The notes below the pieces were generated by a model. That model saw nothing but the letters and a program-made list of their open reading frames with translations, had not been told where the DNA came from and did not search any database. A stretch of 26,364 bases of DNA from a virus: IMG/VR virus record IMGVR_UViG_3300005515_000051, positions 1-26,364 of that record, one strand, 5' to 3'. The position numbers and the translations under genes are program-made. Below, piece by piece: positions 13,369 to 22,481 of this stretch. Position 1 is the stretch's first letter, and every line of letters begins with the position of its first letter.

Positions 13369-13394
13369 TTGCTGTATACGATTTCTCTCCGCAT
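13369..13394 (+). promoter_or_regulatory. GTATAC leader, copy 1
   Basis: TTGCTGTATACGATTT at 13369-13384, then six bases and GCAT. It precedes the recombination operon, 38 bp before the ATG at 13423. It is one of four copies with the same 16-bp core and the same spacing to GCAY; the others start at 19737, 20189 and 22456. No consensus -35 lies at the usual distance. Confidence 0.65.
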
Positions 13395-13422
13395 CCTGTT
13401 TCTCACAACAGGAGTAATGAGT

Positions 13423-13566
13423 ATGAGTAGAACCACCGACGCTTACCAAGAACACTGCGAAAAAATGGAAGGCTTCGACGAGTGGTGGGATGAGAACCAC
13501 CGCCGTGTTGAGGCAGACGACCTTCAGCGCATGTACGAGCAACAATATGGAGGGCTCCATGCGTGA
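13423..13566 (+). CDS. Small acidic protein leading the recombination operon (47 aa)
   Basis: There are two ATGs, at 13417 and 13423. I choose the second because AGGAG then sits at the normal 8-bp distance. The product (MSRTTDAYQEHCEKMEGFDEWWDENHRRVEADDLQRMYEQQYGGLHA) is acidic and helical. Its stop overlaps the GTG of the Rad52-like gene (GTGA), so the two are translationally coupled. No family is recognised. Confidence 0.75.
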   Translation: MSRTTDAYQEHCEKMEGFDEWWDENHRRVEADDLQRMYEQQYGGLHA

Positions 13567-14186
13567 CACCCGAGGCTATCAAGCTCCTTCAAGCTCCGCT
13601 TGACCGTTCGAACGTCAGGCAGCGGACGCAGTCCGGCCGCTCCCTCTCCTATATCGAAGGTTGGCACGCAATCGCAGAAGCCAACCGGATCTTTGGCTTT
13701 GATGGATGGAGCCGCGAGACCATCTACCTAAAGGAGGTCTGCCGGTACGAAGCCAAAAGCTCCAAAGGCGGCACGAATTGGAAGGTCGGTTACGAGGCGA
13801 AGGTTGCCGTCACCATCGGCGGCGTCACCCGAGAAGGCTCCGGGTATGGCCAAGGCACCATGGGCGACTTGTTTGATGCCATGGAGTCGGCAGGTAAAGA
13901 AGCTGAGACCGATGCCATGAAGCGCGCTCTTATGACCTTCGGCAATCAATTCGGCCTGGCCTTGTACGATAAGGAGCAAACCAACGTCTCGGACAGGCCT
14001 GACCCCGCCGAGGAGCGTTCAAAGCAAAAGGTTGCCGAGATCGTCCAGGCGCTTGCGCCTCTAAACCCCTTCGAACAAGCCCAATGGCTTCTCGAAAACC
14101 CCAAGCAGAAGGAAGCTCTGCACTGGGTCAAACAGCACTACCCGCACCTCCTCGCTGAGCTTGAGGGGCTGGGTGTGAGCGTATAA
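13563..14186 (+). CDS. Rad52/Rad22-type single-strand annealing protein
   Basis: The 207-aa protein matches the Rad52/Rad22-type annealase pattern. Early it has SYIEGWHAIAEANRIFGFDGWSRET, then YEAKVAVTIGGVTREGSGYGQGTMGDLFDAMESAGKEAETDAMKRALMTFGNQFGLALYD, the usual conserved core. These proteins form rings that bind single-stranded DNA and pair complementary strands, giving phages RecA-independent recombination. The C-terminal third is less conserved and may carry SSB or partner contacts. It starts at GTG, overlapping the 47-aa gene, and is followed by an SSB-like gene, which supports the annotation. A RuvC-like resolvase is encoded nearby on the opposite strand. Confidence 0.92.
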   Translation: MTPEAIKLLQAPLDRSNVRQRTQSGRSLSYIEGWHAIAEANRIFGFDGWSRETIYLKEVCRYEAKSSKGGTNWKVGYEAKVAVTIGGVTREGSGYGQGTMGDLFDAMESAGKEAETDAMKRALMTFGNQFGLALYDKEQTNVSDRPDPAEERSKQKVAEIVQALAPLNPFEQAQWLLENPKQKEALHWVKQHYPHLLAELEGLGVSV

Positions 14187-14204
14187 CCAACGAAAGAACA
14201 CTAC

Positions 14205-14480
14205 GTGGAAAGGAGAACCTACGATTTGGTGGCCACCTTGGGCACCTATGAAAAAGACGGGCAAAAGAAATACATCAGCCGGAATGTCGGGACGCTTGGC
14301 TACAAGGACGGAGGCGTGCCGTACATCAAGCTCGATGCGACGTTCAACCCGGCCGGTTGCGTGCGGAAAGACGATGGTTCTGTTTGGCTCAGCGCCTTTG
14401 AGAAAAAGAAGGACGACGCCGCAAAGCCTGTGAAGGCTGCCGTTGCCAACAATCCCTTCGATGACGAAATACCGTTCTAG
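14205..14480 (+). CDS. SSB-like small protein with acidic DDEIPF tail
   Basis: The 91-aa product has a beta-rich N-terminal part (RTYDLVATLGTYEKDGQKKYISRNVGTLGYKDGGVPYIKLDATFNP). It ends NPFDDEIPF, nearly identical to the acidic C-terminal tip of bacterial SSB, which recruits repair proteins. It lies directly downstream of the Rad52-type gene, so it probably supplies single-strand binding for annealing. It is shorter than host SSB and no full OB-fold signature can be confirmed by eye. The start is uncertain: GTG 14205 keeps the whole domain, but AGGAG at 14211-14215 would serve an internal TTG/GTG. Confidence 0.7.
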   Translation: MERRTYDLVATLGTYEKDGQKKYISRNVGTLGYKDGGVPYIKLDATFNPAGCVRKDDGSVWLSAFEKKKDDAAKPVKAAVANNPFDDEIPF

Positions 14481-14490
14481 GAGGCTCGTC

Positions 14491-20950: not shown

Positions 20951-21319
20951 ATGCATCAAGTACAGACCCTGACCTTCGGGACCAATGCCGAGGCAATCCC
21001 CGGCTATCACATCCGTATCTTCGGGGACGGGACTGCAAAGCAATACGACGATTCCGAGCACTTGCAGGTGCTGGTGTCGTCCCGTGACGGTCAACCCAGC
21101 GACCTGCAGGCTGAGGTCATGCTGAGCCTGCTGTACGAGGTTCTGCTCGACAACCCGGACCTCAAAGTCGTTTACCTCTACAAGGAGCCAAAGCCATGTA
21201 CCGATTTGTCAGATGGCAGATGCGTACAGTTGAGAGGATCTTCCCAAACCTCCCGGCGCCGCCGCCCCTGTGGGTTTTACACGTCACAGGGGCGGTCACG
21301 CTTATGGCGACGGCTGTAG
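20951..21319 (+). CDS. Hypothetical protein (122 aa)
   Basis: The first 80 residues look like genuine protein (MHQVQTLTFGTNAEAIPGYHIRIFGDGTAKQYDDSEHLQVLVSSRDGQPSDLQAEVMLSLLYEVLLDNPDLKVVYLYKEPKP). The last 40 overlap the 48-aa membrane gene in another frame and are of poor quality, so the tail may be tolerated rather than selected. The ATG has no clear SD. A TTCGC/GCGAA dyad at 20911-20930 lies before the start. No family is recognised. Confidence 0.65.
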   Translation: MHQVQTLTFGTNAEAIPGYHIRIFGDGTAKQYDDSEHLQVLVSSRDGQPSDLQAEVMLSLLYEVLLDNPDLKVVYLYKEPKPCTDLSDGRCVQLRGSSQTSRRRRPCGFYTSQGRSRLWRRL

Positions 21320-21342
21320 GCCTCTATCAGGTGTTCAGGTAG
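21196..21342 (+). CDS. Small membrane protein overlapping its neighbour (48 aa)
   Basis: MYRFVRWQMRTVERIFPNLPAPPPLWVLHVTGAVTLMATAVGLYQVFR has a basic N-terminus, a Pro linker and one hydrophobic segment. The ATG has AAGGAG 8 bp upstream, inside the 20951 gene, which it overlaps by 124 bp in another frame. Its stop overlaps the end of the convergent H-NS-like gene by 8 bp. No family is recognised. Confidence 0.65.
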   Translation: MYRFVRWQMRTVERIFPNLPAPPPLWVLHVTGAVTLMATAVGLYQVFR

Positions 21343-21634
21343 CGCGGAACGCTTCGAGCGGCTTCCCGCTTTCCGCCATCTCCGCCTTGAGCCAGGTCGG
21401 CTCAGCCCCTCTGCCCGCCCAGGTCTTGGCCGGGTCACGGAGGCTGCGATACTTCACTGCCGCAGCCGGTGGCTTCCTTCCCTCGCCCGGCCTGAAGCCC
21501 AAGGCTTTAATTTCCGCCTCAAGGGCGACCCTGCGAGCATCCTTGGCAGCATTCAGCGCCGCAGTGATTTCGGGGTAGGTCCGGATCATCTCGTCCAGCG
21601 TCAGCGCCTTAAAACTAGCGACGATTCCCGCCAT
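21335..21634 (-). CDS. H-NS/HvrA-like DNA-binding protein
   Basis: The 99-aa product has an N-terminal helical oligomerisation part (MAGIVASFKALTLDEMIRTYPEITAALNAAKDARRVALEAEIKALGF). Its C-terminal DNA-binding domain reads KYRSLRDPAKTWAGRGAEPTWLKAEMAESGKPLEAF, with the AT-hook-like TWAGRGAEPTW at 71-81. This is the H-NS/HvrA pattern; such proteins coat AT-rich DNA and silence genes. GGGAGG precedes ATG 21634. It may silence prophage or host genes, or interfere with the host H-NS-like network. Divergent from the HEPN-like gene 85 bp away, it could control that gene. Confidence 0.85.
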   Translation of the reverse strand: MAGIVASFKALTLDEMIRTYPEITAALNAAKDARRVALEAEIKALGFRPGEGRKPPAAAVKYRSLRDPAKTWAGRGAEPTWLKAEMAESGKPLEAFRAT

Positions 21635-21719
21635 ACAACCTCCCGCTGATGAAAGCCGTAGGCTATGCTTTGCGCCGAAGACGGCCAAGTTGGCTTGGCG
21701 AGGTGTAAGGGGGCAGACA

Positions 21720-22379
21720 ATGGGAGAGCGGTTAATCCGCGTGCGACGGCAGGAGCAGCGCAACGTCTACATCCACAACGACCTGGATAGTGCGGCGATC
21801 TATTTCAATGACCGGATCAAAAAACGGCTGGAAGCGGACGATAGAGAAGGCATTGCCTACGACTGCATGGCGCTGGCCACCATGTGCGCCTTCAGCTGGG
21901 AAGCGTATCTCAACTTCTACGGCTTCAAACTCCTCAAGGCTTTCTGGCACGAGCGATGGCCGCTTCACCGGAAGATCCACCATGTCTTCCAAAGGCTCAA
22001 GATCAAGCCTGACTGGCGCAACAGGCCCTACCAGTCCATCCGCAACCTGACGACCGTTCGCAACATCCTTGCCCACGGCAAGCCCGTGGAAGAGACGATC
22101 GACAAAATAGAGGAAGGCTCCCCCAGCGAGATCGATAGGCACCGCATCGACTTGAGTGGTAAGTGGCAAGAGTTCTGCACAACTGACAAGGTGCTCGAAC
22201 AGTTTGAAGACCTGCAAAAGGTCTGGGAAGAGATGTTCAAGGCGTCCGGGCTTGGCCCATTTGATACGATGACCCACGGTCAAGGCGGCGTAGAGTATAT
22301 CGAAGAGGTCAAGGTCGAAGAAGTCATCACCAAGAAAGCAGCCTTCGCAAAGGGCTTGGCAAAGCCAGCGAAATCGTGA
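21720..22379 (+). CDS. HEPN-like protein with RNILAH motif (219 aa)
   Basis: The start is ATG 21720, behind AGGGGGC. The protein is mainly helical. Residues 57-75 read AFSWEAYLNFYGFKLLKAF, and 114-119 is RNILAH, an R-x4-H motif of HEPN domains, preceded by SIRNLTTV. Many HEPN proteins are RNases found in toxins and antiphage systems; others only bind nucleotides. The C-terminus is a charged helix with a Lys/Ala-rich tail. An abortive-infection or superinfection-exclusion role for this prophage is plausible but inferred. No antitoxin partner is obvious; the divergent H-NS-like gene is its closest neighbour. Confidence 0.75.
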   Translation: MGERLIRVRRQEQRNVYIHNDLDSAAIYFNDRIKKRLEADDREGIAYDCMALATMCAFSWEAYLNFYGFKLLKAFWHERWPLHRKIHHVFQRLKIKPDWRNRPYQSIRNLTTVRNILAHGKPVEETIDKIEEGSPSEIDRHRIDLSGKWQEFCTTDKVLEQFEDLQKVWEEMFKASGLGPFDTMTHGQGGVEYIEEVKVEEVITKKAAFAKGLAKPAKS

Positions 22380-22455
22380 GAGTCTTCGCGCGGGGCGCTT
22401 GCGTACTTTCCTTGAACAAGATTTGCGCGGCGCTCCAAATTATTTCGGATTTTCC

Positions 22456-22481
22456 TTGCTGTATACGACTTTCCAGAGCAT
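22456..22481 (+). promoter_or_regulatory. GTATAC leader, copy 4
   Basis: TTGCTGTATACGACTT, six bases, then GCAT. It lies 39 bp before ATG 22511, with the same arrangement as the other three copies. It probably drives the unit that ends with the methyltransferase. Confidence 0.65.

Follow-up and report, generated by a model that had tools for sequence, protein, structure and literature searches.

Cluster K mycobacteriophages (TM4, Adephagia) carry near-identical, intergenic SigA-like promoters with 17-18 bp spacing and an extra element, the extended start-associated sequence (ESAS), which is conserved across related phages, absent at some relatives of a gene and of unclear role (PMC3203893, PMC11373665). 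Here we describe a comparable set of promoters, marked by the hexamer GTATAC, in a viral stretch of 26,364 bp (the complete IMG/VR record IMGVR_UViG_3300005515_000051, probably itself a fragment; hereafter the window) and in its relatives. Both arrangements place several intergenic sigma-A-like promoter copies per genome before scattered genes, each with a conserved extra element that is kept across related phages and missing at some gene relatives. They differ in that an ESAS contains imperfect inverted repeats of 15-17 bp in a stretch of 46-47 bp and is linked to a start-associated sequence (SAS) of 13 bp close to the start codon, whereas here only the 6-bp GTATAC is palindromic and the extra element consists of 11 bp inside the spacer; moreover, the promoter sequences are unrelated and the hosts here are Rhizobiales. 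We regard ESAS as the nearest described arrangement found, one that appears alike in working and not of the same family.

No paper describing the GTATAC motif turned up in the literature searched. As with the lambda OL/OR operators and the L5 stoperators, one phage factor could bind one short site at several promoters, but unlike in those systems there is a single site per promoter, and it lies inside the spacer. We reason that the copies are sigma-70 promoters, each with a putative spacer operator for one, probably phage-encoded, factor, and assign this reading a probability of about two in three (0.66).

In the window, TTGCKGTATACGAYTT occurs exactly at four positions (13369, 19737, 20189 and 22456), all on the plus strand, and is followed after exactly six bases by GCA(T/C) in every case. 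When up to three mismatches were allowed, 5 matches were found against 0.25 expected (none of 100 shuffles reached 5), and a matrix built from the four sites scored them at 35-38 bits, the next best site in the window reaching 9.6 bits. The four promoters are:

13369..13397, plus strand: promoter copy 1, with -35 TTGCTG (13369-13374), spacer block GTATACGATTT (13374-13384) and -10 CATCCT (13392-13397)
19737..19765, plus strand: promoter copy 2, with -35 TTGCGG, spacer block 19742-19752 and -10 CACCAT (19760-19765)
20189..20217, plus strand: promoter copy 3, with -35 TTGCGG, spacer block 20194-20204 and -10 CATCAT (20212-20217)
22456..22484, plus strand: promoter copy 4, with -35 TTGCTG, spacer block 22461-22471 and -10 CATGAT (22479-22484)

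Relatives were traced from the 552-aa portal protein of the window (so assigned by PHROG), which shares 90%, 78% and 68% identity with those of three IMG/VR records (G001, G002 and G003), 88% with that of a Bradyrhizobium manausense SZCCT0344 prophage (L128, 'Br') and 65% with that of a Mesorhizobium sp. B2-3-4 prophage (L129). In INPHARED the portal matched 197 records, each at <60% identity (23-27% in the 20 listed), and the major head protein had no match there. The motif recurs in G001, G002, G003 and L128, often with a diverged 3' part. A promoter-shaped pattern retrieved 42 stretches from IMG/VR and added, beyond the known relatives, G401 (47,263 bp) and G402 (40,805 bp) with two good copies each; a search with the motif itself returned 109 stretches, and among the 80 listed almost all are single hits, about what we estimate for chance. 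A matrix scan of the retrieved loci likewise yielded no further records with two good copies beyond G401 and G402. These two have genes in common with the early region of the window, and G402 structural genes as well, whereas G401 had no match to the window's structural genes at E 1e-3. The motif-bearing records are thereby seven: the window, G001 (locus L117), G002 (L119), G003 (L122), L128, G401 (L170/L171) and G402 (L172). A 13-site matrix scored its own sites at 33-43 bits, the next place at 8.5 and the peak of the reversed matrix at 6.7. Three loci outside the group that hold a GANTC-containing pattern were discarded: L125 and L127 have no CAnnnT, and L126 has CAGCAT at the right distance, but inside a 576-aa open reading frame on the opposite strand. 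Rfam searches of five sources gave nothing at the gathering threshold. Counting GTATAC itself gave 19 occurrences, the motif copies among them, where the expectation ranged from 6.6 to 25.6 with the model used, which allows no conclusion on its avoidance outside the motif.

A gapless alignment of 14 sites showed TTG (-35 to -33), GTATAC (-30 to -25), C-12, A-11 and T-7 to be invariant and RAYTT (-24 to -20) to be strongly kept, the remaining spacer being variable. In the fetched stretches of the seven records, 19 of the 20 TTGnnGTATAC sites have CAnnnT at 17-bp spacing (19 of 21 once the Mesorhizobium relative is added), compared with 68 of 3,757 other TTGnnG sites (1.8%) in the same stretches, a count in which a few overlapping bases enter twice; it covers 21.7 kb of Br and G402 except for 805 bases. 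CAnnnT is missing at that spacing from L172 6905 (G402) and from the single Mesorhizobium site. As G401 and G402 were picked with a pattern demanding CAnnnT, 4 of the 19 sites are not independent of the rule, although 3 of these 4 were also found by a search without that demand; the other 15, L172 13821 included, were found without it. We read each copy as a host sigma-70-type promoter core with a poor -10, because the TTG of the -35, the 17-bp spacer and -11A/-7T fit: C occupies -12 in 14 of 14 sites, -10 and -9 vary, and compared with the TATA consensus only A-11 and T-7 agree invariantly. In Bradyrhizobium japonicum, RpoD-like promoters are described as pairs of 6-mers of the form TTG-N(16-18)-TATA (the spacer being taken as the distance between hexamers), one type having a GC-extended -10 (PMC4842269). 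The housekeeping sigma-70 RNA polymerase of the host would read the -35 TTG(A/C)nG and the -10 CAnnnT across the 17-bp spacer and would start about 7 nt after the -10, giving leaders of about 19-40 nt in the window.

The preliminary description, made from the window's sequence, had recognized the four positions and the exact six-base gap to GCA(T/C), both of which hold far above chance, and had placed no copy inside a gene, which is borne out for all four given the starts that are preceded by a Shine-Dalgarno (SD) sequence. Its distance of 38-47 bp from GCAY to the start was inaccurate, as the measured gaps for copies 1-4 are 28, 45, 47 and 29 nt (ATG at 13423, 19808, 20262 and 22511). Contrary to its statement that a -35 consensus is lacking at the usual distance, the TTG within the motif forms the -35 and GCAY marks the edge of the -10; the invariant T at -7 had been overlooked. 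A need for an unusual polymerase or sigma factor is not supported, since the -35 TTG, the 17-bp spacer and -11A/-7T fit sigma-70. The 19 sites in seven phage records, and an exact motif that does not exceed chance in genomes of the host order, support its suggestion of a promoter or operator that defines a phage regulon. An earlier reading of GTATAC as the -10 was dropped, as no -35 fits it and the alignment gives a better register.

Copy 4 raised the question of promoters for a T7-like single-subunit phage RNA polymerase, since it (ATACGACT-N7-G) resembles the T7 consensus letter by letter. Given that the sites vary at the bases equivalent to T7 -6 to -1 and that the invariant CA...T fits sigma-70, we rejected this reading as extremely improbable; PF00940 had no match in four records, an absence that is weak because the control was silent in every genome.

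The conserved part of the spacer is an 11-bp block, GTATACRAYTT, whose first base is also the last of the -35 and which occupies the upstream half of the spacer; by the column counts of the 14 sites it is palindromic over GTATAC only. Promoters with the same type of core also occur without it. In the window, G001 and L128, TTGACG-N17-CAGCAT serves the divergent gene next to the place of copy 1, and at the corresponding divergent place G401 has TTGACT-N17-CAGCAT, likewise lacking GTATAC. In G002, TGGACG-N17-CAGCAT stands at L119 1479(-), where the related G001 gene has GTATAC (L117 6682(-)). The features of the window that bear on this comparison are:

13293..13321, minus strand: divergent promoter TTGACG-N17-CAGCAT lacking GTATAC, ahead of the genes that run leftward from 13266
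19309..19337, minus strand: promoter-like TTGACG-N17-CACCTT without GTATAC, upstream of 18561-19262, with GAATC at -16 to -12
13333..13346, no strand assigned: palindrome TGGCAAATTTGCCA, between the divergent promoters; also at L117 14249 and L128 4175

Since the core recurs without the block, and the block is conserved beyond the needs of sigma-70, we take it for a putative protein-binding site, and its dispensability for the core leads us to read it as an operator. GTATACRAYTT would then serve one trans-acting factor, most simply a repressor, that would shut or tune all GTATAC promoters together. On sequence grounds, the phage group would switch several genes by near-identical sigma-70-type promoters whose core is conserved and ordinary.

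Alternatively, the block could be an activator site, at which a phage factor in the spacer helps sigma-70 to use a poor -10 and turns the genes on as a set. The mismatch of the -10 to TATAAT makes an activator possible, and both the weak -10 (CAnnnT), joined in the window by a weak -35 (TTGCKG), and the coverage of recombination, replication, partition-type and methyltransferase operons speak for it. Spacer-binding activators of the MerR type work on 19-20 bp spacers. The 17-bp spacer found here is already optimal and same-type cores without the block exist in the same phages, and we consider activation unlikely, though worth keeping in view. That the block is instead a DNA-level element (a modification target, or a replication or packaging signal) and lies in promoters by coincidence would suit the palindromic GTATAC and the DNA methyltransferases encoded by the window and G002; that 19 of 20 sites keep it in one register with the -35 and -10 makes this barely credible.

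Other repeated sequences accompany the central divergent region. We regard the palindrome TGGCAAATTTGCCA as a second, separate candidate operator. In G002, G003 and G401 the central divergent-region promoter carries GTGAGA(C/G)GATTC (L119:8555-8600, L122:9340-9370, L170 about 12690) at the place held by TGGCAAATTTGCCA in the window, G001 and L128, possibly a swapped operator. In five phages CAACAGGAG stands before both divergent start codons of the central switch region (window 13406/13284; L117 14311/14190; L119 8685/8577; L122 9468/9358; L128 4237/4116), a start-associated sequence resembling the mycobacteriophage SAS.

The exact motif was found in 3 of 397 Rhizobiales genomes, as against 9 of 397 for the reversed pattern, and the Mesorhizobium genome had no exact motif and, with one mismatch, 3 matches against 2 for the reversed pattern (these searches were near-exact, and the sample of 397 may lack close hosts). 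An occurrence at chance level argues that the factor acting on the block is probably phage-encoded. By these counts the exact motif marks no general host regulon, and the earlier proposal of a phage-encoded factor stays likely for the spacer block.

The same counts bear on the idea that a host regulator binds the block and the phages borrow a host regulon, with GANTC in the relatives adding control by CcrM/GcrA. GANTC occupies precisely -16 to -12 at 8 of the 19 sites, despite standing at 48-66% of the base-composition expectation in the seven records, and GcrA of Caulobacter and Brevundimonas is proposed to work together with sigma-70 at promoters that carry methylated GANTC (PMC7987155, PMC3667746). 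None of the 4 window copies has GANTC there, which makes it at most a feature of relatives, and with the exact motif at or below chance in the 397 genomes we hold a host regulator to be improbable.

The window genes downstream of the copies, including one discussed below as a possible regulator, are:

13423-15107, plus strand: operon of copy 1, read as driven by that copy
13423..13566, plus strand: first gene of this operon (47 aa), 46% identical to its G003 counterpart
13563..14186, plus strand: recombinase / DNA-repair-type gene of the same operon, by PHROG matches
14868..15107, plus strand: small RHH (ribbon-helix-helix)-like protein, last gene of the same operon, candidate regulator of the GTATAC block by predicted function
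19808-19993, plus strand: 61-aa gene downstream of copy 2
20262-20474 and 20467-20751, plus strand: genes downstream of copy 3
22511-22789, 22796-22969 and 22966-24003, plus strand: genes downstream of copy 4, the last a DNA methyltransferase

A copy stands at the same divergent place as copy 1 in G001, the Br prophage, G003 and G402, so that the central early operon is preceded by GTATAC in these four and in the window; where recognised, this operon is of the recombination type (recombinase/DNA-repair PHROGs in the window, Erf-like in G402). The G002 central operon is also Erf-like, and there the copy precedes the operon divergent to it. Replication-type operons are preceded by copies in G001, G002 and G003, a 92-aa gene before a DNA methyltransferase has an upstream copy in the window and G003, and a relative of the gene downstream of copy 4 (81% identity) occurs together with the motif in G402. 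In G401 a copy precedes a short stretch before a ParB-like gene, and further copies precede other small genes. None of the copies found lies within a structural gene block.

Several of these neighbourhoods hold features of their own. The 61-aa protein (19808-19993) has two cysteine pairs and 76-81% identity in G001, G002, G003, G401 and G402, a conservation unusual for a small phage protein, and its gene is next to a GTATAC promoter in the window, in G003 and, divergently, in G002. Another conserved small protein of the window, of 77 aa, is encoded at 16898-17131. The ParB-like protein (PF02195) of G401 lies downstream of the promoter within L171:4482-6194, and G401 is possibly a phage-plasmid. 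G002 carries a PvuII-like restriction-modification cassette (L119:3170-5013) with an endonuclease (PF09225, E 9.7e-69), an XRE-type controller-like gene and an N6/N4 DNA methylase. The leaders of the replication operons after the GTATAC promoter (L119:2188-2270, plus; L122:15280-15360, minus; L117:7760-7860, plus) can be folded into a hairpin whose loop could pair over 7-8 nt with bases immediately downstream, as in an H-type pseudoknot. G002 and G003 share this layout with different sequences (for each, none of 1000 base shuffles did as well), the G001 leader is weaker (25 of 1000), and none had an Rfam match; the layout recalls the pseudoknot control of plasmid rep genes. Finally, part of a GFA-family gene (PF04828), probably host DNA, lies at the right end of the window (26066-26362, minus) and at the left end of G001 (L117:2-337, plus) with 76% identity, which suggests the same integration site.

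Short palindromes in promoters are frequent targets of RHH proteins, and the protein encoded at 14868-15107 resembles the RHH autoregulators (Arc, CopG, AtaR-type) in being small, in having two helices after an N-terminal stretch and in belonging to an operon that it possibly controls itself. Its model shows helices at 13-26, 30-46 and 55-72 after that stretch (the first two of 14 and 17 residues) and no strand in the monomer, and the nearest PDB structures are, by title, mostly RHH repressors and antitoxins (Arc, CopG, AtaR) at weak scores (VIA Z up to 4.2). Unlike those proteins, its family stands outside Pfam and PHROGs at significance, and its strand and its DNA binding are putative. The presence of GTATAC at the central operon promoter tracks this family in 8 of 8 phages: both are present in the window, G001, G003, L128 and G402, and neither in G002, G401 and the Mesorhizobium prophage. 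The family profile was built from 4 of the 5 positives, leaving G402, which was chosen by its promoter motif and not by the protein, as the independent case (E 5.6e-14). On visual inspection, different small genes that G002, G401 and Mesorhizobium have at the corresponding place resemble RHH genes, and the syntenic Mesorhizobium gene matches the CopG-like phrog_7325 at E 0.0024. As predicted, the protein would be made from the operon that copy 1 controls and would thereby exert negative feedback. It is the best single candidate for the regulator of the block, a tentative one with the odds tilted against it, and one regulator could govern all GTATAC promoters. We consider it rather unlikely that an undescribed RHH family acts as master regulator of the phage group, through the 11-bp spacer site, of the recombination, replication, partition-type and methyltransferase operons, with GANTC in the relatives tying the regulon to host CcrM/GcrA methylation. 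The HTH_36 protein at 8643-9185 was set aside as a repressor, its best matches being replication and DnaD-type proteins.

Several observations weigh against the proposed promoter-operator set and its candidate regulator. The palindrome of the block is limited to six bases, the -10, with C at -12, fits TATAAT poorly, L172 6905 is intergenic yet has no CAnnnT at 17 bp, and the related phages are non-independent observations. For 5 of 14 sites, a crude scan over about 170 nt turned up no start with an SD sequence before it. A terminase small-subunit-like match follows L172 13821 (G402) on its strand after 360 nt, so the regulon may exceed early genes and 'early' is to be taken as a tendency. The model of 14868-15107 has a mean predicted local distance difference test score (pLDDT) of 67.9 and a best Foldseek E of only 0.67, the protein had no Pfam or PHROG match, and its family had no relevant PDB sequence match in a profile search. 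The family is absent in 2 of the 7 motif-bearing records, since G002 and G401 hold two GTATAC promoters each and no detectable member; unless it has diverged, this protein therefore cannot regulate the block in all of the phages.

For a little-described prophage group of Rhizobiales (nitrogen-fixing soil bacteria) these promoters amount to a regulatory code, in which one 29-bp signature marks a promoter set and extends even to G401, a record without a match to the group's structural genes. They provide a clean case of a short conserved site inside the promoter spacer, present at some related promoters and absent from others, and offer a candidate regulator that is open to testing.

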